Positions 49,428 through 64,000 of a stretch of DNA of 64,000 nucleotides are shown here, one piece after another. The stretch lies in the NCBI RefSeq assembly GCF_009646095.1, contig NZ_CP045725.1, forward strand, positions 310,001 through 374,000, in the 5' to 3' direction. Source of the stretch: Raineyella fluvialis (GTDB lineage Bacteria; Actinomycetota; Actinomycetes; Propionibacteriales; Propionibacteriaceae). Each line of letters begins with the position of its first letter. The first letter of the stretch is position 1. The notes beneath the pieces were generated by a model. That model did not search any database. It was not told the DNA's origin and saw nothing but the letters and a program-made list of their open reading frames with translations. The position numbers were made by a program, and so were the translations under genes.

Positions 49428-50707
49428 ATGAGCAAGAGTCAGCCCATTCTCATCAGCAACGTCATGGTACTGGACAGCACGGGCAGCGAGCCGTTCCCCG
49501 GCGAGGTGCTGGTCGCCGACGAGAGGATCGTCGACGTCCGACGCGTGCCCACCGGTGAGGCCCCGGAGGGGGCCGAGCGCGTGAACGGACGCGGCCACAC
49601 CCTGATGTCGGGTCTGTGCGACGCCCACACCCACTTCACCTGGAACGAGGGCGACCTCGACGCACTCGCCACGCTCCCCGTCGAGGAGCATGTGCTCCAC
49701 TCCATGCGCTCGGCCCGCATCTACATCGATCACGGCTACACCATGTGCGTCGGCGCCGCCAGCGCCAAGTCCCGGCTCGACGTCGTCATGCGTGACGCGA
49801 TCAACAGGCGCGAGATCCAAGGGCCGCGCTACCTCGCCAACGGCATGGAGATCGCGGTCACCGGAGGGCAGCTGGTGAGCGGCATCACACAGTTCGCCGA
49901 CGGTCCCGAAGAGATGCGGAAGGTGGTCCGCGAGACGATCTCGCTGGGTGTGGACACCATCAAGTTGTCCATGTCCGGGGAGGAGATCACCGGACGCAAC
50001 CGCGCGGCCGACAACTACTTCAGTGACGAGGAGGTAGAAGCAGCCGTGCGCGAGGCGCACCGGCGCGGCGTCCGGGTGGCTGTCCATGCCCGCGCCGCAG
50101 AGAGCGTCCGTCTGGCCCTGCGCCACGGCGCCGACATCATCTACCACGCCAGCTTCATCGATGACGAGGGCATGGACATGCTCGAGGAGCGGAAGGATTC
50201 GGTGTTCGTGGCGCCCGGACTGAACTGGTTGATCGCGACGCTCAACGAGGCCGGCGACTTCGGATATCCCCGGCCGCAGCTGAGGCAGCCGGCTACAAGT
50301 ATGAGCTGGAGTGCGCGATCGAGGGGCTGAAGGAGATGAAGCGCCGCGGCATCCGCATCCTGCCCGGCGGCGACTACGGCTTCGCCTGGACACCGCACGG
50401 CACCTACGCACGCGACCTCGAGCACTTCGTCAACCTGCTCGGCTTCACTCCCATGGAGGCGATCCTGTCCGCCACTGCACTCGGCGGCGAGATCATGATG
50501 CAGCCCGACTTCCTGGGCAAGATCCTGCCGGGCTACGCGGCTGACATGGTCCTCGTGGACGGCAATCCCCTGGAGGACATCACCATCCTCCAGGACAAGT
50601 CGAAGATCGTCGGCGTCATGAAGGAAGGGCGCTACTTCCGCGAGTTCCCCACCGGTGACCCGATCCCGCGGTCTATCGGCGCGGACGCACGGGGGCGCTT
50701 CACCTGA
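49428..50707 (+). pseudogene. Amidohydrolase-family enzyme, one apparent frameshift
   Basis: Restored length about 426 residues. First frame: MSGLCDAHTHFTWNE (metal HxH), then IKLSMSGEEITG and VAVHARAAES, HASFIDDEGMDML (further metal His). The frame is lost near 50270 (CCCGGCC); one missing base restores AAAEAAGYKYELECAIEGL and the C-terminal part with the late metal Asp region GGDYGFAWTPHGTYARD and ADMVLVDGNPLEDI. Belongs to the imidazolonepropionase/prolidase-like amidohydrolases. Same operon as FAH and hydrolase. Confidence 0.85.
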
Positions 50708-51568: not shown

Positions 51569-52408
51569 GGCTCTTCGCAGTTGAGGGTGTAGGTGCGCAC
51601 TGAACTGGGGCCGACTCTGGGACATGGGCGTGAAGAAGGGCCCTGGGTTGGAAGATGGAGGTTCTCTACGCCGTCATCGCCAAGCCCAAGGCCCGTATGT
51701 CCCAGCCTACGTCACCCCTGTCCACTCCTTGCCTGGACGAGTTCTGCCGCCTCGATCGTCTCGGCCTGACGGTGGTCGGCCAGCAGGTCGCTCCCGACCA
51801 CACCGTTCTGGTCTGCCACGTCGTCGCGCCCGGTGACGTGTGTCCCGCGTGCGGGCAACGCGGGACTGCCCGCGACATGGTGACCCGCCGACTGGCGCAT
51901 GTCCCGTTCGGCTGGTGGCCGACGATCCTGCACGTGCGGGTGCGCCGCTACCGGTGCTCGCAGTGCCGCAAGGTGTGGCGCCAGGACCTGCGGCCGGCCG
52001 CCTCGGCGCGGGCGAAGCTGTCGCGTGACGCGGTGACGTGGGCCTTGCGCGCGTTGGTGATCGATCGGATGTCGGTCGCCCGGATCGCCCAGGCGCTGGG
52101 CGTGGCGTGGAACACCGCGAACAAGGCCGTCCTCGCCGCAGGCCGCCAGCTGTTGATCGCCGACCCTGCCCGTCTGGGCGGGGTGGAGGTGATCGGGGTC
52201 GATGAGCACGTGTGGCGCCACACCCGCCACGGCGAGCGCTACGTCACGGTGATCATCGACCTGACCCCGATCCGTGACCACACGGGCCCGGCGCGCCTCC
52301 TCGACATGGTCGAGGGACGTTCGAAGAAGGTGTTCAAGGCCTGGTGTCGGGGTACTGCCTGACGTGTCGTGTTGAGTACGGGCTGACGTGTCGGTTCCGG
52401 CGTGGTCA

Positions 52409-53179
52409 TCATGTCAGGTGGTCGGGGTCGTTGACGAGGGCGTGGTGGTCTTTGAGTCGGTAGCTGGGGCCGTTGATGGTGATGACGTCGCAGTGGTGCA
52501 GGAGGCGGTCGAGGATGGCGGTGGCGAGGACTTCGTCGCCCAGCACGCTGCCCCATTCGACGAAGGATTTGTTGCTGGTGATGATCAGGGAGCCGCGTTC
52601 GTAGCGGCGGGAGACGAGTTGGAACAGCATGTTCGCCTCGTCGCGGTCCAAGGGGAGGTAGCCGACCTCGTCAACGACGAGGACGGAGGGTCGGAGGTAG
52701 GTCTGGAGTTGGCGGTTGAACCGGCCTGTCGTCTCCGCGGTCCGTAGCCGGCGGACGAGGTCGTCGAGGGTGGTGAAGTAGATCGAGAACCCGGCCTGGC
52801 AGGCGGCGACGGCCAGGCCGACGGCGAGCATCGTCTTCCCGACCCCGGGCGGGCCGAGGAGGGCGATGTTCGACTTCGCGCGGACGAACTCCAGGGTCGC
52901 GAGGTCTCGTATCTTGCGGGGCTCGAGGTCGGGCTGGAATGCGTAGTCGAACTCGTCGAGGCGTTTGTGGTGGGGCAGGCCGGACAGTTTCAGTGCGTTG
53001 GTGAACCGGCGGGCCTCGCGCATCCCGGCTTCCTCTTCCAGCAGCAGGTCGAGGAAGTCCAGGTAGCCCATCTGGGCGGTCTCGGCCCGGTCGGTGAGTT
53101 CGGTGATCGTGTCGGTGAGGTGGGTCAGGCCCAGCCGGGTCGCGTTGGCGCGGATCCGGTCGACGGTCAGGCTGCTCAC
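52409..53179 (-). CDS. istB: IS21 helper ATPase IstB
   Basis: 256 residues from GTG 53179, overlapping the istA stop (GTGA). Walker A LLGPPGVGKT with Walker B VLVVDEVGYLPLD and sensor ITSNKSF: the AAA+ IstB group. It binds target DNA and activates the IstA integrase. Intact. Confidence 0.95.
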   Translation of the reverse strand: MSSLTVDRIRANATRLGLTHLTDTITELTDRAETAQMGYLDFLDLLLEEEAGMREARRFTNALKLSGLPHHKRLDEFDYAFQPDLEPRKIRDLATLEFVRAKSNIALLGPPGVGKTMLAVGLAVAACQAGFSIYFTTLDDLVRRLRTAETTGRFNRQLQTYLRPSVLVVDEVGYLPLDRDEANMLFQLVSRRYERGSLIITSNKSFVEWGSVLGDEVLATAILDRLLHHCDVITINGPSYRLKDHHALVNDPDHLT

Positions 53180-54537
53180 GCCCGTCCCCGTCCGGCGGCG
53201 AGGGCTTGGTAGGCGGCCAGGTCACGGCGGGCCACGGCAACATCGGCACGGTGATGAGCGACCACGGCTGCGAGCGGGCCCGTCCCCGCGCCGTCGACGC
53301 TCGCGGCGGCGGGTCGGGTGGGGAGTTCGATGACGGTCGCGCGGGTGTGGCCGTCGGGCAGTCCGTCCCAGTGGGCCGGGTCGATGACCCACTGCCCGCG
53401 GCGGGTGGCGCGGGTGTGGGTGGTGAGCAGGGTTGTGCCGTCGGGGTCGGGGGTCAGGGTGTGGATGGTGAGGGTGTCGGCGCCGGCCCGGACGGCGACG
53501 CGTTGGCCGGGCCGGATCCGGGCGGCGGGCACCGAGTAGAAGCTGGCTTCGAAGGAGACCAGGGCGTCCTTGCCGACGCGGCGCAGGTGGGACTCACAGA
53601 CCAGATACGGGTGTGGCGGGATCGGCGCGAGGGCGGCGCGGTCGGCCTCGGCGCGCACGGCGATGACTTCACCGTGGGTGCGGTGGACCTGGGCGCGGCG
53701 GATCGCGAGCCAGTCGGTGAAAGCGGTCTGGAGCTCGGCCAGGGAGTCGAACCGGCGCCCGGCGACGACGTGGTCGCGCACGATGTCGACCTGGCGTTCG
53801 ATCTTGCCCTTGCCGGTGGGCCGGTAGGCGGCCAGGACATCAATGTCGAAGCCGTAATGATCGGCGAACGCCGCGGCCTCGGGATGGAGCGGGACCGGCG
53901 CCCTGGGGGCGACGTGGCGTTTGATCACGGTCTTGGTGCGGTCGTAGACGATCTGGGCCGGGACCCCGCCGAAGTGGTCGAACGCGGCGCGGTGGGCCTC
54001 CCAGAACGTGGCCAGGTCGGTGCTGGTCGTGAACAGGCAGAACGGGTCGCGGGAATGTGCCAGGACCATGTGGAAGGAGTACACGTGTCCGATCCCGACA
54101 TGGGCGAGCAGATCGCCCTCATCGCCCCAGTCGACCTGGGCCTGCACCCCGGGCTGGGTCTCGAAGCGACGGTGCAGGCCGGTCAGCCGGTTCTCGTCGT
54201 CGGCGTCCAGTTCGGCGCTGATCCGGGGCCGGGCCGTCGCGACGAACATCTTCACCCGCTGGTAGTGGCCGGTGAAGCCGTACTGCGCGACCAGTCGTTC
54301 ATGGATCACGCTGGCCTTCAACCCGATATCGGCGCGCAGCCAGCCCTCGACCACCGAGACGAACGGGGTGATCAGCGCCGGCTGGGTCCCCGCCCTCGGC
54401 GGGGCCTTCGGAGGGCCGACCAGAGCGTCGGCCGTCAGGTACTTACGGACGGTGCGCCAGTCACACCCGCACTCACGGGCGATCTCGGCATACGTCGCGC
54501 CTGCCTGGTGCAGGACGCGGAAACGGCGGATGTTCAT
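53176..54537 (-). CDS. istA: IS21 transposase IstA
   Basis: 453 residues from ATG 54537, chosen because GAGGAG lies seven bases upstream; ATGs at 54561 and 54630 are in frame. An N-terminal helix-turn-helix (GATYAEIARECGCDWRTVRK) is followed by the rve-type catalytic core (QVDWGDEGD; IVYDRTKTVI; TGKGKIERQVD giving the DDE set) and a C-terminal beta domain. Intact and upstream of istB, so this IS may still be mobile. Confidence 0.94.
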   Translation of the reverse strand: MNIRRFRVLHQAGATYAEIARECGCDWRTVRKYLTADALVGPPKAPPRAGTQPALITPFVSVVEGWLRADIGLKASVIHERLVAQYGFTGHYQRVKMFVATARPRISAELDADDENRLTGLHRRFETQPGVQAQVDWGDEGDLLAHVGIGHVYSFHMVLAHSRDPFCLFTTSTDLATFWEAHRAAFDHFGGVPAQIVYDRTKTVIKRHVAPRAPVPLHPEAAAFADHYGFDIDVLAAYRPTGKGKIERQVDIVRDHVVAGRRFDSLAELQTAFTDWLAIRRAQVHRTHGEVIAVRAEADRAALAPIPPHPYLVCESHLRRVGKDALVSFEASFYSVPAARIRPGQRVAVRAGADTLTIHTLTPDPDGTTLLTTHTRATRRGQWVIDPAHWDGLPDGHTRATVIELPTRPAAASVDGAGTGPLAAVVAHHRADVAVARRDLAAYQALAAGRGRA

Positions 54538-56684
54538 CCAGGACTCCTCATCCAGGATCATGGGGGTAAGCCACCCTTCGGTCTCGTCTTCTTGGCGGTT
54601 GACGAATCGAAGGGTGGCCCACCCACACACGGGCGAGCAAGGGGTTAACTCGCCGGAACCGACCTACACATCAGGTCGTACCCACCACGACACATGAGGT
54701 CGTACGCCGACACCTGGCTCGCCGACCAGACCGCAGCGTTCCGCGCCCGGGTGGAGGTCGTCGCGATGGACGGGTTCACTGGCTTCAAGACCGCCGCTGT
54801 CGAGGAACTGCCCGACGCGGCGGAGGTGATGGACCCCTTCCACGTCGTCGCCCTCGCCGGAGACAAGCTCGACCAGACCAGACAGCGGATCCAGCAGGCC
54901 ACCCGCGGGCATCGGGGCCGGTCGGGTGACCCGCTCTACGGCATCCGCCGGGCGTTGCGGACCAGCGCCGGCCTGCTCACCGACAGGCAGATTGCCCGGA
55001 TCGGAGCGGTGTTCGCCGACGACGCCCACGTCGCCGTCGAGGCCACCTGGGGCGTCTACCAGCGGGTGATCGAGGCCTACCGACAGCCGTCACGGGCCGA
55101 CGGCAAGCAGATGATGACAGCGCTGATCGCCTCGATCTCCCACGGGGTCCCGAAGGCGTTGGGTGAGGTGATCACGCTGGGACGGACACTGAAACGCCGC
55201 CGCACCGACATCTTGGCCTACTTCGACCATCCCGGCACCTCGAACGGGCCGACGGAGGCGATCAACGGCCGACTGGAACACCTACGCGGCACCGCCCTCG
55301 GCTTCCGGAACCTTGTCCACTACCGGCTACGAGCACTGCTCGACACCGGGGGCTTCAGACCCCGACTCCACTCTCTTTTGTGAAGAGCCCTTTGCCCTTG
55401 TCTCGTGTGGGAAGGCCAAGCGGTCAGCTCCGAGCGCCGCCGCGGATCTCTACACGTCGGATAGCTTCCGCAAGCGTCGCGCGATCGCCGAGGATGCCGG
55501 ACGAGCGTGGTTCATCCTGTCTGCCCAGCACGGTCTAGTGCCGCCGGACGAGGTCCTCGCGCCATACGACCTGGCGCTCGCCGAGACCGGCCCGGACTAC
55601 CGCTCCGCCTGGGGAGCCTGGGTCGTCGCGAAGCTGATGCACAAGGTCGGCCCGTTGAACAGCAAGTCGGTGCTCGTCCTGGCACCCGCCGCGTACGCCG
55701 ATGCGATCAGACCGCACCTCCAGCAGGCCGGAGCCCGGCTCAAGGAGCCTCTGGTCGGCCTGCGCCAGGGCGAACAAGGCGCATGGCTGGCAGCCGAAGT
55801 CAGACGCCACCGTCTCGCAGGTGGGGGACCGGCCACTACCGCGGCTCCCGTAACGGTGGCTTCGGTTGACGACCACGTGCGCGAAGCCCGGGACGCGGCC
55901 GTTGCTGCTGCCCTGGTGGCCTACCGCGAGAGCAACGAGAAGCTGCATGAATCGCGACTCGGATATGCCGACACGGCCGAGGCCGACGAATTACTGCAGA
56001 CTGATCCGTTCGCCTTCCTCCTCGGCGTCGTGCTCGACGAAGGCATCCGGGCCGAACGGGCATGGGGAGGCCCACTCGAGCTGAAGAAGCGCCTGGGACA
56101 CCTGGATCCGTGGCGAGTGCGCGACCAACGCGACGACGTCCGCGCGGCGGTGGCCGGCCCGCCGGCGCTCCACCGCTTCGTCGAGATCATGGCCGAGGCG
56201 ATCGTCGATGCCGCCGACCGGGTGTGCTCCACGTACGGCGGTGACGCGAGCCGGCTCTGGGCGCCGGGATCCACGGCTGCCCAGGTCGACGCACGGCTCC
56301 GGAAGTTCCGCAAGATCGGACCTAAGAAGGCAGCCATGGCCGTGGAACTGCTCGTGACCCACTTCGGCATCGAGCTCGCCGAACTCCAAGGAACCAACGT
56401 CGCCTACGACGTGCACGTGCGGCGGGTGTTCCTCCGCACCGGGCTCGTCGATCGCGACGACATCCGCGAAGTCACCCGGGCCGCGCGATCCCTGTACCCC
56501 GCTCGGCCCGGCTACCTGGACCTGCCCGCCTGGCTGATCGGGCGAGGCTGGTGCCACGCCACTGGGCCCGACTGCGCTCAGTGCCCCTGGGCGATGTCTG
56601 CCCGATGCTGACTGATCGAAACGTGTCCTAATGAGCCGCCTATTGGAGGGGTGAACTCCAAGGCGTCAATCACCTGGCACGCAG

Positions 56685-57056
56685 CTAGGCGGTGTCGATG
56701 GCTGACTGGATCTCCTTGGCTACAGGCGCCTTCTCGTTCATCCACACTCGGGCGTAGACGTCAACAACCAAGGGCCAGACCTTCTGGATTCCATCTTCGA
56801 CGGAGTGGATGTCGTCGGCCAGCGGTCCCCATACGACGAAGTCATGAGGGATGATGCGACCGGCTGCGTCTACGCGGTTCAGCGGATCGAGAAAGCGCAG
56901 CGCCACCCGCTCCTCGGCGCGTCGGGATACCTCGACGTCATCCTCGATGCCCGCGAAGGCACGCTCATACGCTGACAGCGGATCGGAGTAGCCTCCAAAC
57001 AGGAGGAAGCGAAATCCCCAGGACCGGCCGCGGGTGGCCCAAATGAGGTCTACCAC
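56685..57056 (-). CDS. Small protein of the defence-like operon, unknown
   Basis: 123 residues, last gene of the minus-strand operon. It overlaps the GTPase stop by seven bases. Seen: WGFRFLLFGGYSDPLSAYERA and VVWGPLADDIHSVEDGIQK, with many aromatic residues; no signal or membrane span. No family recognised. Tight coupling to the GTPase suggests a partner or regulator of it. Convergent with the DUF6884 gene, 73 bases apart. Confidence 0.65.
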   Translation of the reverse strand: MVDLIWATRGRSWGFRFLLFGGYSDPLSAYERAFAGIEDDVEVSRRAEERVALRFLDPLNRVDAAGRIIPHDFVVWGPLADDIHSVEDGIQKVWPLVVDVYARVWMNEKAPVAKEIQSAIDTA

Positions 57057-58219
57057 GGGCTTTTGACCAGCAAGCGGTCCTTCACACCGCGGTCCAAGTC
57101 AAGCCGAAACTGCGTGAGGGTCGCCGTGAGATAGTCCCTGTTCGCGAGCGCTTGCGCATGGATCTCCTCGAGTTTCGCCCCACCCGACTTGATGAGTTCT
57201 GCCAGCGCGGGAACGGCGAGTGGTGCGAGGACCGGGCCAACCTTGGGAACCTTGCTCAGGACCTTGGTGAGCAAGGTTCCTGCCGCACCTGTGAGAACCA
57301 CGGCGAACTCGTTGGCGTGGTCGACCAGTCCCCCCAGCATCCTGAGAGGCATATCGACCTTTTCTGCCCACTGTGCGACCCGTTCAAGAGGAAGCATCGT
57401 GGCCACCGGGAGGATGAGGTCGAGGCCGACCCGCTCAGTCACCTCGATCTTGCCAGGCTCGAACTTGGCCGAGGACAGCAGCATGAAGTCTTCGCCGAGC
57501 GACAAGGCCTCGGGCGCCTGGACGAAACCCTTGAGCGTCTGCTGCAGCATGACGATGTCACCCGCAGCCTTCTCAACGAGCAGGTCCTTGAACCCTTGGA
57601 CATCCAACTCAGGGTGCAAGTCCGCCTTTGAGAGGGCGAGGATCCAGATGCGCGGAAACTCCTCCAGTGGCTTGCCATCCGCCAAGATGTCGTCCTTGAG
57701 TTTCTCCAGCCCGACGCGCAGACCCCCGAGCATCATCCTGAAGTACTTCTCCTCCTCACCCGCGTAGTCGAGGAGCTTTTGCCCGTCGACCAGCACGAGA
57801 GCGACGTCGGACTTTAGGAGCTTGGTGAAGGTCTCGACCCGACGCCGGGACACTTCGTCACTGCTCGGATCCTGCTCGAACCATTGGCCTGGGTAGTCGT
57901 GCCAGACCAAGCGCAGCGCACCAAACGAACTTGATGGGGCGGCCGCCGCCCCATCCCCATCCTTCGGCCTGATCGTGAAGGAGTACGGAACCGCATCGAA
58001 ACGATTGGTCGGCGGAACCTGCGCAGCTTTGCTCATCTTGAGGTAGTTGGCATGCAGGCGAAGGCCCTGGCTGGTGTCGTCGGCCAGTACTTGGTACAAG
58101 TTGCTGCTGAGAAATGAGGGTTCCTGGGTCGCGCCATAGAACGACGAAAGTAGGACGGTCTTGCCGCTGCCGCTTTCCCCAAAAACGGCAATGTTCTGTT
58201 CCTTCACCTTCGGCGCCAT
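57050..58219 (-). CDS. TRAFAC-like GTPase of the defence-like operon
   Basis: 389 residues from ATG 58219, one base after the helicase stop. G1 GESGSGKT at 14-21, G3-like WHDYPG at 106-111 and G4 LALSKAD at about 195-200 show a complete GTPase core of the TRAFAC type (double-GTPase-like families look similar). Residues about 300-345 are strongly hydrophobic and rich in Gly/Ala/Val/Pro (VVLTGAAGTLLTKVL; GPVLAPLAVPALAELI), which may contact membrane. In such operons a GTPase or ATPase often senses or triggers the effector. Known family match not made. Confidence 0.75.
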   Translation of the reverse strand: MAPKVKEQNIAVFGESGSGKTVLLSSFYGATQEPSFLSSNLYQVLADDTSQGLRLHANYLKMSKAAQVPPTNRFDAVPYSFTIRPKDGDGAAAAPSSSFGALRLVWHDYPGQWFEQDPSSDEVSRRRVETFTKLLKSDVALVLVDGQKLLDYAGEEEKYFRMMLGGLRVGLEKLKDDILADGKPLEEFPRIWILALSKADLHPELDVQGFKDLLVEKAAGDIVMLQQTLKGFVQAPEALSLGEDFMLLSSAKFEPGKIEVTERVGLDLILPVATMLPLERVAQWAEKVDMPLRMLGGLVDHANEFAVVLTGAAGTLLTKVLSKVPKVGPVLAPLAVPALAELIKSGGAKLEEIHAQALANRDYLTATLTQFRLDLDRGVKDRLLVKSPW

Positions 58220-58220
58220 G

Positions 58221-61200
58221 TCAGTCACTGCCACTTTCGATCGGGAACGGATGTGTGATGGCAACAGTATCGGCCTCGGCTCGGACGAGCGTCGCCGGAG
58301 GTCCCGCGGTGGTCACACGATGGGCCTTGCCAGCTGCTCCATCCCACCGATCGCTCATCGGCGCGCTCAGGTCCAGCCGCAGCTTCTCCAACTCCTCCGG
58401 ACTCGCCTCCGAGTAGTGCACCTTCAGAAGCTCGAGCATGTCCTCCTGCCGTGGCTGCCCGAAGGTCAGTCGGTACAGCGCCACGTCCCGCTTGATCTCG
58501 TCCAGCCGCGCGGAGTCGATGCTGAGCGGAAATGGCGCCACATGGCGCTCGATGCGCGCCGGCCCGGGATACACCCAATGCGGAGCGAACTCTCCCAGCC
58601 GTTCCCGCTCGTCCTCGGCCAACTCGTACGCCACCCGCCAGGGGTTCGGCTCCTCATTCGTGAGGATCGCCCTACGGTGCCGTGCCGCAATATTGCGGCG
58701 CACTGCGTGGCCGTCGAAGCGGTCAACGCGGCCCTCCCGTTGCTCGAAGTCGATGGGGTTGGCCGGCGTGTTCCAGTGCATCACCGCATGGCACCACCAG
58801 TGGAAGTCGACGCCCTCCTGTCCCACGCTCGTGGTGGCCAGCACGAAGGGCCAGAACGGACTGTTGAAGGCCTGGCGGACGACCGGCTGCCTGTTGCTCT
58901 CCTCAGTCGCGCGTCGACTGCCGAATCGCAGGGCGAAGCGCGCTCGGATCCTCTGCTGCTTACCGGGATCATCGGGATCGAACAGTTCGTACGTGGCCGG
59001 GCGCAGTTCGAGTGCCGTGGCGACGGAGCGCGCGACGTCCATGAGCCCGTCGTCGTCCAGGGCGGCACCTCCCTGGGCGGCATGGACGTGATGGACGAAC
59101 TCGTCGAGCACTGCCTGCAGATTGCCCCAGGCGCAGTACTGCAACACCTTGTGCCAGTAGGGCACCTGCTCGGGGATGAGCTGGTCGAGCAACAGGACGG
59201 TCTCGGGCCTGGAGAACAAGGTGCGGAAGGCCGACGACATGCGTGCCGCTGCCTGCCAGAGTCCTGTCTCGGTGACCTGCGGCTGCGTAGCGGCGATGCG
59301 TGACAGTGCGCGGTAGGCGGCGTTGCCAGGGCTGTGGGTCGCGACCCGGGCGATCAGGTCGAGCGTCTCGTCAGTGACGGTGCGGTCCTGCTGTTGGCCG
59401 CGGATCCGCAGGGCCAGCTCGATGTGTCGGAACCGGCGCTCGCTGCTCTGCCTGCTCGTGTCGGATCCGCCCGGGCCCGAGTCCTGGTCATCACCGGTGG
59501 AGCCGCTGGCGGCATCCTGAACCCGGTCAGCGGTCAGACCCTCCGGTGTCGAGTCCGGGCGCCGAAGCGCCTCGTACCAGTGAGACGCCCGCTGGCCGGC
59601 TGTGTCAGGGAGATCGACGCGATGATCGTCACGCAGCCGTTCCACCACGGTGGCATGCAACCGCTGCGGGTCGAGGTGTTTGCTCTCTTCTCCACGATGC
59701 AGATCGGGGCGCCGAGGGTCCCCGACGCGGGCGAGGCCCGGCATCGGCCAGAAGATCGCCAGGGTCGACATCGACGAGGGTCGTTCCCGCTCACCCTCAG
59801 GGTCCATCCGGTAGCCGAGCAGGTTGCGGCGATTGTGCCGGTCCTTGTCCCGTTCCTTCGCCGTCATGCCCCGGTAGGTCTCGCCAGCCCCCAGCCGATC
59901 GGCCTCATAGCTGAGCAGGGAGGCGACCGCACCCGGGGTCGCTGTCCACGACGAGAAGATCAGGCGCTTGGTCACGTCCTGCGCGAACTCCTCGGCGTAC
60001 GGCCCGCTCGGGGTCAGGTACGGCAGCGACGGCGGCACCCACAGCAGCTTCCACCAGCCCTGGTCGACGGTTCGGGCGGCCAGCTCGCGTAGCCGGGCGT
60101 TGCCCATGTCGATGGGCTCGTAGGCATCGAGGGCTCCGAAGTCGATCTGCTGGGTCCGGTCCAGCAGGGCACGAACCTCGCCAGCGCGTGATGGATCGGC
60201 CAGCGCGGCCCGGACCTGGTCGGCGACCTTGTAGCCGTCCATGAAGTTGACGAAATAGGGTGCGGACTTCCAGTAGCTCACCGGGAACGGGGCGCCGACC
60301 TGGCGAGCGACCTGCTGCATGGCGACGTATCCCCGCAGGTCGTCAGCCGGTGGCGGGGCGAGCGGGACTGCGCGCTCGCTGGTCATGGTGGAGGTCAGCA
60401 GACGCGGCCGTTCAGTGCGTTCCATCACGCTGAGCAGGCGGTCGCGGACCTGGTGGGTGAGGTCGGCCGCACCACGACCGGTCACCACGGCGTTGCGGTA
60501 GTCCCGCAGTGCCTCGGCGATCCCGTCGGTGACCGCACCCTCCCGGCCTCCGGCCAGGAAGCGGACGATCTCGAGGAAGTCGCGGTGGTGGTCGTCACCG
60601 CTCTGGGCCTCCTCGGCGTAGGTGAACGGCTTGAACGGCGTGGCCGAGAGCAGCAGCACCTTGGCCCGGTGGTCGGTGCCCTCCTCGTTGTAGTTGAACA
60701 GGTGGTGGGCCAGCTCGCCGGCTTCGCTGTCCTCCACCAGCAGGTCCCGGAACCGTTGGAACTCGTCGAGGATCACGAGGTCAGGGGTGAGCAATCGGAC
60801 ACTCTCCCGGGCCAGCAGTGCGCGCAGTCGGGCGACCAAGGGCCAGGCGACGTCCCACTTCTTGCTGTAGCGGACATCCTGCAGCAGGTCCTCGAACTCA
60901 TCGAGCAGGCTGCGCTCCCCCGCAGCCGCAGCGGCGAGGAAGGGACGGGAGATGGCGGGGTCGAGGCAGTCGGGAAGTTCGGGATCGTCTAGAGCTTCGA
61001 CGATGGGTGCGCGGCCGTGGGTGAGCTGCCTACGCAGATCGCTCACGTACCAGTCCCGGAACCGTCCCGAGGTCGATACGGTGCCCTGCAACACCTGGAG
61101 CGCCCCCTTCGCCCGCCAGCCGGTGAGCCGCATCTTCTTCTCGAGCAGGAGGTAGAGCATCGCCCGCTCCTGCGCCGTCCCAGACCGCCAACTGCTGCTG

Positions 61201-61619
61201 AACGACGTCCCTGGCGTGAAGGAGACCAGGTTGACGGCCTTCATCAGGCCGTCATCACCGGGCTGGGTGAAGTCGCGCGAGTGCTTGGCGAGCAAGGTCA
61301 ACCGGCTGGCGATGCCGTGCTGGGCTCCACCGGTGACGTTGAGCTTGCGCAGGTTCTGATGGGCCAGGTCGAGGTTGGAGCAGACGTAGACGACGTCGAT
61401 CCGGTCGACGTGGTCGTTGCGCTGCAGTCGCTCGACGGTGCGCGCGATGACGCCGCGAGCGACGATGGTCTTGCCCAGGCCCGTCTCGTCCGCAACGAGG
61501 AAGCGGTCTGTCGGGTCGTCACCGTAGAAGCGGTCGATGACGTGCTCGACGGTGTTGCGCTGGAAGCTGGTGAGGCCATCCAGGACGGGTTGGGCCACGA
61601 ACGCTCGGCGCTCACTCAT
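58221..61619 (-). CDS. SNF2-type helicase of the defence-like operon
   Basis: 1,132 residues from ATG 61619, overlapping the PLD stop (ATGA). Walker A ADETGLGKT at 43-51, motif II DEFQ at 285-288, motif III LLSATP at about 323-328. The C-terminal lobe has ATTSVGQEGVDFHWW and FEQREGRVDRF (motifs V and VI with arginine finger). A long insertion separates the lobes. It would translocate on nucleic acid with ATP. Relatives occur beside PLD-like nucleases in several phage-defence systems. Intact despite its length. Confidence 0.88.
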   Translation of the reverse strand: MSERRAFVAQPVLDGLTSFQRNTVEHVIDRFYGDDPTDRFLVADETGLGKTIVARGVIARTVERLQRNDHVDRIDVVYVCSNLDLAHQNLRKLNVTGGAQHGIASRLTLLAKHSRDFTQPGDDGLMKAVNLVSFTPGTSFSSSWRSGTAQERAMLYLLLEKKMRLTGWRAKGALQVLQGTVSTSGRFRDWYVSDLRRQLTHGRAPIVEALDDPELPDCLDPAISRPFLAAAAAGERSLLDEFEDLLQDVRYSKKWDVAWPLVARLRALLARESVRLLTPDLVILDEFQRFRDLLVEDSEAGELAHHLFNYNEEGTDHRAKVLLLSATPFKPFTYAEEAQSGDDHHRDFLEIVRFLAGGREGAVTDGIAEALRDYRNAVVTGRGAADLTHQVRDRLLSVMERTERPRLLTSTMTSERAVPLAPPPADDLRGYVAMQQVARQVGAPFPVSYWKSAPYFVNFMDGYKVADQVRAALADPSRAGEVRALLDRTQQIDFGALDAYEPIDMGNARLRELAARTVDQGWWKLLWVPPSLPYLTPSGPYAEEFAQDVTKRLIFSSWTATPGAVASLLSYEADRLGAGETYRGMTAKERDKDRHNRRNLLGYRMDPEGERERPSSMSTLAIFWPMPGLARVGDPRRPDLHRGEESKHLDPQRLHATVVERLRDDHRVDLPDTAGQRASHWYEALRRPDSTPEGLTADRVQDAASGSTGDDQDSGPGGSDTSRQSSERRFRHIELALRIRGQQQDRTVTDETLDLIARVATHSPGNAAYRALSRIAATQPQVTETGLWQAAARMSSAFRTLFSRPETVLLLDQLIPEQVPYWHKVLQYCAWGNLQAVLDEFVHHVHAAQGGAALDDDGLMDVARSVATALELRPATYELFDPDDPGKQQRIRARFALRFGSRRATEESNRQPVVRQAFNSPFWPFVLATTSVGQEGVDFHWWCHAVMHWNTPANPIDFEQREGRVDRFDGHAVRRNIAARHRRAILTNEEPNPWRVAYELAEDERERLGEFAPHWVYPGPARIERHVAPFPLSIDSARLDEIKRDVALYRLTFGQPRQEDMLELLKVHYSEASPEELEKLRLDLSAPMSDRWDGAAGKAHRVTTAGPPATLVRAEADTVAITHPFPIESGSD

Positions 61620-63496
61620 CGTCGCGCCTCCCTCGGCTCGAGAACGTCCATCACGGTCGCCCAAAGCTCGTCGAAGCCCTGCGGCAGCACGTTGCGCCCT
61701 TGGTCGGTCGCCCGGAGACGACGGACCAACCGGTCCAGGTCTCGAAGTGCTTCCGGACGGTCGGCCAGTGCCCGGACGACGAGTTCGAAAATGCCAGTAC
61801 TTCCCCCGAATGCCGGATCCCAGGCGCCCCCGGACTGTCCGTCGGGCCCCGTTGTCGCAGTCCACAGGGCGGCGGGATCGCTGAGTCCGAGCAGGAGCGA
61901 CAGGAAGCGCAGGAACTTCTCAGGGGTATCGACCTGGCGGGCCAGCACCTCGTCGAGCCGGTTCGGCGGGTCGTTCTCCAGGGGTGCGTGCACGACGGTG
62001 CTGACGGTCACGCCGTGGGGATCGGTGACGCGCATCGTGACGAACGGCGTGATGTCGGGCAGCACGACCTGGAAGCACGCGTCAGTCCGACCGGACTCGG
62101 TCTGAGTGCGGCTGATCCCGGGCTGTGTGAGCAGGGCGAGCTGGACGACGTGGTCAGCCGGGATGGCCAGCTCGGTCTCGCTGGTCAGGTGCAGCTGGTA
62201 GGTGCCGTCGACGTGCTCAACGGTGATTCCGAAGGGAACCGCGGCCAGCGTACGCAGCAGGTTCTCCAGGTCGCGGACCGCGGCGTCCTCCTCCGGGATC
62301 GGATGGTCGGCGCCGGGGGCGTACGCCTGCAGCAGGGTTCGGAGGTTGGCGCTCGTCTGGGGGTCGTCCGGCAGCGTCATCATGGCGTCGACGCCCAGGT
62401 GCTGGGACCGGCCGACCAGTTCGACCACGAACTCGACGTTGCCTCCGTAGGCGGCCGAGGTGGCGTTGGCCGAGCCGATGAAGACGTGGGTCTCACCGCG
62501 GTTGCGCTCCACGACGGTGACCTTGGCATGCAGGCCCACCAGTTCGCTGGCCGAGGACCCGGGTTCCTTCGTGCTGCCCGGCTGGGCGGACCTGGCATCT
62601 CCTGCCTCTGTCGTCGTCGCTTCGACCGCGGTGATGTCCGCATTCGCCAAGGGGTCGAGGACGAAAACCGCCTCCCCGCCGGGACGTCGTAGGCCGGCAA
62701 GGGACTCGGGCCCCAGGGCATCCAGCGCCTCCGGGCGGGAGACCAGTGCCACGTCCCTGGTGTTGGCACCGCTGACGTGGCGAATGCCGGCGGCGTCGAG
62801 GAAGGGGGAAATGACGAGGTGGCGGTAGCCGGTGAAGTCGGGCTCAGCCCGAAGGCGAGGCACACCGAAGGCGTGGAAGTGCATCTCACTGACGTGGTCG
62901 GGCAGGGACCAGTCCACTCGCTCGGCACGGTCGGCCAAGTCGTTCACCCGGGCGAGTCGCTCGGGCGCCAGGTCGGTGACGGCCCAGTTGGGCAGCTGTC
63001 GGAGGAACCGGGCCAGCGACCGGTTGCTGTCGTGGCGACGACCGCCGGCGATCCCCTCGAGAGTGACGACGGCATCCCATGCGCGGCTGTCAGCCAAGTT
63101 CCGGGTCGAGCAGATCAGTCGATAGGCGTCCGGAAGGTCCTCCGCGGTGTAGCGCAGGAACCAGATCTTGGGATGGAAGAGGTATCCGGGCCGCGGACGG
63201 TGGACGGGGTGCAGCATCGGCTCGAGGAAAGCCATCAGGTCGGATGCCTGCTGGGGGACGGCGATCTGGCCGGCTTGGCAGAAGATGTCGACGCGGTCGG
63301 CGCAGGCTCGTACCGCCTCCAGCGCGGCGATCGGGTCCTCGCGTGTGCGCATGTCGTACGAGGCGAAGGCGAGCGGGGCGACCAGCGCTGTCGGCAGGTG
63401 CAGGGTGAACGTTGTCGTCACTGCGGCCTCGAGCCGGTAGCCGGCGGGTGGGCGGAGCTGGTCCATCAGGACGACACGGCTGTCGGGCTCAAACAC
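61616..63496 (-). CDS. Phospholipase-D-like protein with two HKD-type motifs
   Basis: 626 residues from GTG 63496, chosen for GAGGGG seven bases upstream; ATG 63511 is in frame. The first site is LFHPKIWFLRY (108-110 HPK) with STRNLADSRAW about 22 residues later. The second is GLHAKVTVVERN with HVFIGSANATSAAYGGN. Two HxK and two S/T-x-N parts fit a PLD-fold nuclease or phosphodiesterase. The C-terminal 200 residues look beta-rich. It overlaps the gene before it by a few bases and the helicase by four. Probable nuclease partner of the helicase. Confidence 0.86.
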   Translation of the reverse strand: MFEPDSRVVLMDQLRPPAGYRLEAAVTTTFTLHLPTALVAPLAFASYDMRTREDPIAALEAVRACADRVDIFCQAGQIAVPQQASDLMAFLEPMLHPVHRPRPGYLFHPKIWFLRYTAEDLPDAYRLICSTRNLADSRAWDAVVTLEGIAGGRRHDSNRSLARFLRQLPNWAVTDLAPERLARVNDLADRAERVDWSLPDHVSEMHFHAFGVPRLRAEPDFTGYRHLVISPFLDAAGIRHVSGANTRDVALVSRPEALDALGPESLAGLRRPGGEAVFVLDPLANADITAVEATTTEAGDARSAQPGSTKEPGSSASELVGLHAKVTVVERNRGETHVFIGSANATSAAYGGNVEFVVELVGRSQHLGVDAMMTLPDDPQTSANLRTLLQAYAPGADHPIPEEDAAVRDLENLLRTLAAVPFGITVEHVDGTYQLHLTSETELAIPADHVVQLALLTQPGISRTQTESGRTDACFQVVLPDITPFVTMRVTDPHGVTVSTVVHAPLENDPPNRLDEVLARQVDTPEKFLRFLSLLLGLSDPAALWTATTGPDGQSGGAWDPAFGGSTGIFELVVRALADRPEALRDLDRLVRRLRATDQGRNVLPQGFDELWATVMDVLEPREARR

Positions 63497-64000
63497 GTGC
63501 CAGCCCCTCATGGATGTCCGTCACGATGGTCTTCACCGTGCCCCAGCGGTAGTCCAGGCCACCGCCACCACCGCCGCCCCACTGGCCGAGAAGCTTCTGG
63601 TTGGCCAGCCGCGCCTGCTTGCCCTTCAAAGCAGCCTCGCGGTTGGCGATCAGCACGCGGAGGGACTCGTTCCTCACTCCGTTGGTGACGATGCCGTCAA
63701 GCATGGCACCGACCCACTGGTCGACGAACGCCTGGGTCCGCAGGGAGATGCGCGGGTTCCTGGCGCGAACCGATACCCAGAAGTCCTGCTGGTCCCAGGC
63801 GTGGAGTTGGTGACGGAGGTCCCCCAGCTCGTCGAGCCACGCGAAGTACTGGTCGCGGTAGTCCTCGACAGTTGCCCGGACAGTGGTGAAGCCAGCCTGC
63901 TCGTAGGCCTCGGCGAGCAGCACGTTATAGAGACGGGTAGCGCCCTTGACTGCGAGTGAGAAGAGCTGCGCATGGTGCAGGAAGCGCGCAGCCGGATCCG
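63489..64000 (-). CDS. Helical protein of the defence-like operon, 5' end outside window (possibly DUF6361)
   Basis: The last 170 residues are in the window; the start lies beyond 64000. Seen: HHAQLFSLAVKGATRLYNVLLAEAYEQAG (quoted FLHHAQLFSLAV, LYNVLLAEAYEQAG), WLDELGDLRHQLHAWDQQDFW and a glycine run of eight near the end. This order resembles, as I remember it, the DUF6361 family found next to helicase/PLD genes. The role is unknown; it may recognise a target or regulate. First visible gene of the operon. Confidence 0.65.
   Translation of the reverse strand, partial: DPAARFLHHAQLFSLAVKGATRLYNVLLAEAYEQAGFTTVRATVEDYRDQYFAWLDELGDLRHQLHAWDQQDFWVSVRARNPRISLRTQAFVDQWVGAMLDGIVTNGVRNESLRVLIANREAALKGKQARLANQKLLGQWGGGGGGGLDYRWGTVKTIVTDIHEGLARV

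Follow-up and report, generated by a model that had tools for sequence, protein, structure and literature searches.

A GTPase and a predicted longin-like partner behind an Azaca operon of Raineyella fluvialis: a candidate two-gene immune switch of actinobacteria

Here we analyze a cluster of five minus-strand genes from the actinobacterium Raineyella fluvialis (assembly GCF_009646095.1, contig NZ_CP045725.1), located at the end of a 64,000-nt stretch of DNA (bases 310001-374000 of the single-contig 3.65 Mb genome, hereafter the window) and originally predicted to form a five-gene phage-defence operon. With gene starts taken as the first fitting ATG or GTG, the recomputed coordinates confirm five reading frames on the minus strand that overlap or are set one base apart. 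The cluster comprises the C-terminal part of the DUF6361 protein ZacA (63489-64000), which extends beyond the window, the phospholipase-D-like (PLD) protein ZacB (61616-63511), the helicase ZacC (58221-61619), a TRAFAC-type GTPase of 389 residues from the DO-GTPase2 family (57050-58219) and a partner protein of 123 residues with a predicted longin-like fold (56685-57056). The overlaps amount to 23 nt for zacA/zacB, 4 nt (ATGA) for zacB/zacC and 7 nt for the GTPase and partner genes, and one free base lies between the stop codon of zacC and the ATG of the GTPase gene (TGA-C-ATG). We consider it likely that the five genes constitute two units, an Azaca system (genes 1-3) and an independent GTPase-partner module (genes 4-5), and it is this pair, not Azaca, that makes the locus interesting.

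By profile identity, genes 1-3 are Azaca, an already known system. The PADLOC profiles for ZacA (4.6e-41), ZacB (6.4e-168) and ZacC (E 0, 1109.6 bits, model positions 5-1016 of 1019) detect all three proteins, in the same order as in Azaca (PDLC03828-03830) and, for ZacB and ZacC, over nearly the full length, and ZacA also matches Pfam PF19888 (1.9e-12). The helicase carries the motifs GLGKT, DEFQ, SAT and QREGRVDR, and ZacB contains two HxK sites (FHPK..., GLHAK...GSAN). The DUF6361-like first gene, the complete helicase motif set, the two-site PLD fold and the view of helicase and PLD nuclease as a defence pair, all put forward in the original prediction, thus hold, the pair being ZacC and ZacB of Azaca. 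The same prediction regarded the combination as less studied or undescribed, and named a match of the whole operon to a named system as a result that would speak against it; three of the five genes do match a named system, so that the claim fails for genes 1-3 and stands for the GTPase pair, which finds no named counterpart in the Pfam, PADLOC, NCBIfam and PHROG libraries searched. Azaca was reportedly first described by Millman et al. in 2022; literature searches for the Zac genes listed nothing related. Passages of PMC10952713 give a PLD-like domain for Azaca, passages of PMC12278908 place ZacC among defence helicases, and Azaca is named among systems with unknown mechanism in a part of PMC10482375; the anti-phage activity of the window Azaca is presumed from its profile identity. 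DISARM was considered for the same genes and rejected, since its PADLOC profiles score far below those of Azaca (DrmD 42.2 bits versus 1109.6 for ZacC, DrmC 17.2 bits versus 558.2 for ZacB) and its NCBIfam profiles fall short of their cut-offs (DrmC 21.2 bits against 133, DrmD 47.9 bits against 610).

The fourth gene encodes a GTPase with the motifs G1 (GESGSGKT), G3 (DYPG) and G4 (SKAD) that had been predicted, and also G5 (SSAK). The glycines, lysine and threonine of G1, the DYPG motif, the serine, lysine and aspartate of G4 and the alanine of G5 do not vary across the 66 sequences aligned (that of the window plus those from 65 of the 80 loci described below). The protein passes the cut-off of Pfam DO-GTPase2 (PF19993) narrowly, with 29.7 bits against 27, and over model positions 3-142 of 226, that is, over the N-terminal part of the model; two relatives, in L098 and L148 (L-numbers denote the stretches and loci fetched for this analysis), score 32.9 and 38.2 bits. 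Its AlphaFold model (pLDDT 85.1) matches TRAFAC GTPases with a best E-value of 3.3e-5, and we found no solved structure related to it by sequence. The original prediction also gave this protein a hydrophobic C-terminal segment; in the window, this segment reaches a maximum of only 1.37 on the Kyte-Doolittle scale (19-residue mean) and just 14 of the 66 sequences attain 1.6, so membrane insertion is not established.

A GTPase above the DO-GTPase2 cut-off with a partner gene directly downstream recalls the DO-GTPase/GAP1 conflict systems treated in passages of Kaur et al. 2020 (PMC7159879). The partners differ, however, as none of 12 small proteins matches a GAP1 family. GAP1-M, the one GAP1 domain searched genome-wide, was found neither in this genome nor in the other 79 of 80 phylum genomes, while a control search recovered it in Corynebacterium glutamicum. 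On these two results we rejected a GAP1-type DO-GTPase system, and the genes flanking the module include no recognisable GAP1, FNIII, GASH or effector gene.

The partner protein has no significant Pfam match and no solved structure related by sequence. Its AlphaFold model (pLDDT 96.5) shows five strands, with a helix after strand 2 and two C-terminal helices. In Foldseek comparisons against the PDB, ranks 1-15 are entries of the GATOR1, SEA, DENND10, FLCN-FNIP2, AP-4 and VAMP7 types, all of which we take to be longin-bearing proteins or complexes, although the word longin appears only in the VAMP7 and synaptobrevin-like titles. Passages of PMC3521125 state that GTPases are bound by longin and roadblock domains, and a part of PMC8107286 gives a catalytic arginine for the longin domain of FLCN. 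Measured against MglA-MglB, in which MglB is a roadblock GTPase-activating protein (GAP), and against the longin-type GTPase regulators (passages of PMC3521125, PMC10933270 and PMC8107286), the module shares a GTPase with a small partner, whose predicted order of strands and helices would fit, but differs in its larger, DO-GTPase-like GTPase, in the weakness of the fold match and in the lack of a sequence match. Residues R9, R67, D57, D63 and H71 are kept in all 70 aligned small proteins (that of the window plus 69 of 79), and for R54 and R61 the figure is 69; one of the conserved arginines might, as a guess, be an arginine finger. We tentatively predict that the partner is a longin-type GTPase regulator.

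The two genes nearly always occur as a pair. Searched for at the protein level, the GTPase turned up in 10 of 137 family genomes, that of the window among them, and no other genome of the genus (3 searched) has it; an early genome scan with the GTPase alone returned 41 pattern matches and no relatives. Profile scanning of genome contigs yielded 120 GTPase relatives, of which the best 80, all from Actinomycetota, were kept; these re-find 7 loci of the first set. The small protein follows the GTPase in 79 of these 80 loci, with its first matched residue at most 30 nt from the GTPase end, and likewise comes after the GTPase in each of the 11 other full-length loci from the overlapping first set; the sole exception, L155, lacks a partner, and its GTPase frame is broken. 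Beyond the pair itself, no neighbouring gene was shared by more than 8 of the 80 loci. One Rhodococcus genome (ARC_M5, G1072) holds two module copies, L108 and L121, whose GTPases are 53% and 50% identical to that of the window. The pair is apparently undescribed, with no account of it among the papers that the literature searches listed or in the family libraries used.

Upstream of the GTPase gene, a TANNNT box ending 6-8 nt before the start codon was counted 70 times in the 80 loci, compared with 6 times in 42 other upstream positions. Such a placement corresponds to that of leaderless promoters in actinobacteria. Four Pseudoclavibacter loci without the box carry an AGGAG site instead, and in three of them a coiled-coil gene (DUF2130-like by eye) ends 34-71 nt upstream. 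The window GTPase is preceded by the zacC stop codon and has no TANNNT box at this distance. Given that the GTPase gene lacks a box of its own and starts one nucleotide past the zacC stop, the most parsimonious interpretation is that the module was captured behind zacC and would now be read from the Azaca transcript.

In the samples searched, the pair is separate from Azaca. Searches with ZacC matched 10 of 147 genomes in the family, 19 of 293 in the order, 9 of 394 in the class and 5 of 396 in the phylum (sets that overlap one another and include the own genome), and 25 other Azaca loci (462.6 kb) were scanned with profiles of the GTPase and the small protein. Neither profile matched in any of the 25, so that within this sample the pair was seen behind zacC in the window only; the stretch behind ZacC is visible in 24 of them, as L055 ends inside ZacC. 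A 4.3-kb contig outside the profile scan (L050) gave no match by tblastn. Even L030, from the same genus and with a ZacC 83% identical, has a different gene behind ZacC. Conversely, neither ZacB nor ZacC lies beside any of the 80 GTPase loci within flanks of up to 10 kb, some of them cut by contig ends, and genome G027 possesses both Azaca and the GTPase pair some 1.1 Mb apart. The original prediction proposed a neighbourhood survey in which a recurrent five-gene set would have lent it support; that survey found no such set, and on the two zero counts we rejected a single recurrent five-gene system. Other same-strand genes start at or overlap the ZacC stop in L032, L034, L044, L047 and L049, and variable cargo may be accommodated at this position.

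A defence function for the module is suggested by its context. Clustering of the 862 genes within 6.5 kb of the 80 loci recovered type I restriction genes (named by eye), with hsdM in 8, hsdR in 7 and hsdS in 6 loci; in L137 the module sits between hsdS and hsdR. N6_Mtase, the only family counted against background, was searched at E ≤1e-20 in 78 genomes (366.7 Mb) covering 79 of the 80 loci, with L109 outside the test and with 20 of 30 candidate places dropped as belonging to other contigs by frame length. Genome-wide there are 87 matches, of which 10 fall within the 79 loci (1.57 Mb in all), spread over 9 of them, where 0.37 would be expected; the module therefore lies beside N6-methyltransferase genes about 27-fold more often than expected. 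On a Curtobacterium plasmid, the module precedes a type ISP enzyme and is near CBASS-type genes.

Relatives of the partner also occur in phages. The small protein falls into phrog_38171 (2.8e-15), a phage family of unknown function, and Foldseek matches it in BFVD to gp8 of Arthrobacter phage Nightmare (E 9.6e-10, TM 0.82). Further relatives by sequence are gp8 of phage Tokki and proteins on two IMG/VR contigs, with gp016 of Rhodococcus phage ReqiPepy6 more distant. The C-terminal domain of the phrog_38171 proteins (Nightmare gp8, Tokki gp8) is about 40% identical to the window small protein, but these proteins differ from it by an N-terminal DUF7211 tag and a hydrophobic stretch, and no GTPase was found in these phages. 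In all five phage proteins the partner domain is C-terminal, the N-terminus carries a tag of the HYGVKGMKWG type (Pfam DUF7211 in the three scanned) and a hydrophobic stretch is visible by eye. The gene lies between the terminase and portal genes in all three phages that have names; the 6 tagged frames of Nightmare all fall within its first 11.9 kb. Across the actinophages L161, L162, L163, L164 and L166, the terminase-portal region holds four to eight frames with such tags. According to passages of PMC9503650, the neighbours of terminase and portal genes often code for proteins that are packaged in the head and injected, and from its gene position the phage protein could be a partner mimic delivered by the virion, the HYGVKGMKWG-type tag possibly being a virion cargo tag that serves varied cargo domains. 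A literature search on the tag returned nothing pertinent, and one on these phages listed, among other rows, genome announcements.

The GTPase profile matched neither viral contigs nor the phage pieces (Nightmare whole, the others in part; E up to 1). A scan of all phage records gave a single GTPase match, in the doubtful MT835574.1 (L078, 'Bacteriophage sp.'); we rejected it as a phage carrier because its neighbour, similar to the NERD-type gene beside the module in Brachybacterium L156, and a nearby quinolinate-synthase-like gene (by eye) give it the appearance of a Brachybacterium chromosome piece.

The window Azaca adjoins a large defence island upstream of zacA, and here the setting foreseen in the original prediction is borne out. 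The island (L004:11734-20000 and L005:1-18144, adjoining the window at about 374.7-401.1 kb of the genome) contains an Mrr-type type IV enzyme, DruF- and DruE-like genes, a DrmD-like helicase, a type IIG restriction enzyme, a second DruE-like helicase and a UvrD-like helicase. An Mrr gene also precedes zacA in 2 of the 25 other Azaca loci (L030 and L032). Several frames in this region are interrupted. Beyond the window, ZacA is split over two frames (L004:11349-11687 and L004:10489-11352), whereas all 25 relatives have both pieces in a single frame; the neighbouring DruE-like gene occupies at least two frames (L004:15904-18126 versus L004:18072-20000), as does the type IIG gene (L005:4640-5860 versus L005:5353-9333). 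Within the window, a metabolic gene that looks amidohydrolase-like by eye (49428-50707) is likewise split over two frames, and the breaks therefore fit assembly indels as well as they fit decay.

On the other side of the module, window positions 55313-56611 encode a DUF6884 domain fused to an HhH glycosylase-like domain, matching PADLOC PDC-M57A (5.3e-28) and, below its cut-off, NCBIfam TIGR03252 (1.1e-25). The listed start of this gene overlaps the end of an ISL3-like element whose transposase is in two pieces (51655-55383), with an IS21-like istA/istB pair between them (52409-54630, minus strand), both by eye. An ISL3-like fragment of similar kind lies behind the module in L072.

The mechanism that we propose, tentatively, is that of an actinobacteria-wide two-gene immune switch, consisting of a TRAFAC GTPase and a bacterial longin-like partner, that is captured into defence operons and countered by membrane-anchored phage copies shipped in the virion. 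In the window, Azaca and the module would share one transcript, presumably with translational coupling. ZacC would translocate on invading DNA and direct the ZacB nuclease, with ZacA as an accessory factor. The GTPase would act as a nucleotide switch on whose G domain the small protein docks as a longin-type regulator (GAP, guanine nucleotide exchange factor or platform), setting the off state; infection would tip the switch, and the GTPase would then drive a local, perhaps membrane-proximal, response. Phages whose head-gene cassette encodes a membrane-anchored version of the partner domain would deliver this protein along with their DNA and hold the host GTPase off.

Two alternatives concern the window operon. 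The five genes might form a single system, an extended Azaca whose helicase-nuclease complex is gated by the GTPase. The tight spacing from zacB onwards (a 4-nt overlap, a 1-nt gap and a 7-nt overlap) and the missing promoter box right before the window GTPase would fit such a system, but the pair is lacking from every other Azaca locus, the closest one (L030) included, none of the 80 module loci shows Azaca in view and genome G027 keeps the two units far apart, which makes this explanation very improbable. More credible, though still less likely than not, is a decaying island in which this strain has already lost a working Azaca and retains only the GTPase pair intact. The ZacA gene in two frames, together with its DruE-like and type IIG neighbours in at least two frames each, speaks for decay; the metabolic gene at 49428-50707, broken in the same way, is equally compatible with assembly indels.

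Two others concern the function of the pair. It might serve membrane or stress homeostasis in a YcjX-like manner and come to lie beside defence genes through co-collection of mobile cargo. YcjX entries do give the highest TM by query length (0.36, 0.38) among the 50 PDB rows listed, and many loci lie among metabolic genes (by eye); the patchy presence of the GTPase in the family, the phage copies of the partner and the methyltransferase enrichment, measured within the same genomes, argue the other way, although co-collection of cargo would produce a similar enrichment, and on balance we regard a homeostatic role as unlikely. Still less probable is a toxin-antitoxin-like addiction pair, with a toxic GTPase neutralised by the small protein: two coupled genes of patchy distribution would suit it, as would the decayed L155, which has neither an intact GTPase nor a partner, but the first gene is large and has all GTPase motifs, the partner is strongly conserved and no known toxin family was matched in the libraries used. 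Several observations weigh against the favoured reading too. Unless the ZacA break is an assembly error, the window Azaca may be non-functional in this strain. Two plasmid remnants separate the pair, L079 holding a 61-residue GTPase piece without partner and L080 a 67-residue partner piece without GTPase. The Poisson probability of the methyltransferase enrichment (about 3e-10, counted by loci) is not that of a blind test, since the family was chosen after hsdM had been seen; 70 of the 79 loci have no strong N6_Mtase match, weaker ones not being counted, and ordinary metabolic genes occur in many of the 80 neighbourhoods (by eye). Similarity of the partner model to longin folds is weak (best E 0.025, TM ≤0.49, rmsd ≥5 Å), with unrelated folds from rank 16. 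Tryptophans 6 and 13, identical in 70 of 70 bacterial proteins, are missing in the phage copies, which may for that reason bind something else, and gene position is the sole pointer to packaging of the tagged phage proteins.

What is known of GTPase-longin switches comes mainly from nutrient sensing and membrane traffic in eukaryotes. If the proposed immune switch is correct, GTPase switches with longin-type partners would also act in the conflict between bacteria and phages, and the phage copies of the partner would point to candidate trigger or inhibitor proteins and to testable phage-host pairs, with Nightmare and Tokki as examples. For the annotation of defence loci, the case of R. fluvialis would then caution that seemingly extended Azaca operons can be two systems on one transcript.

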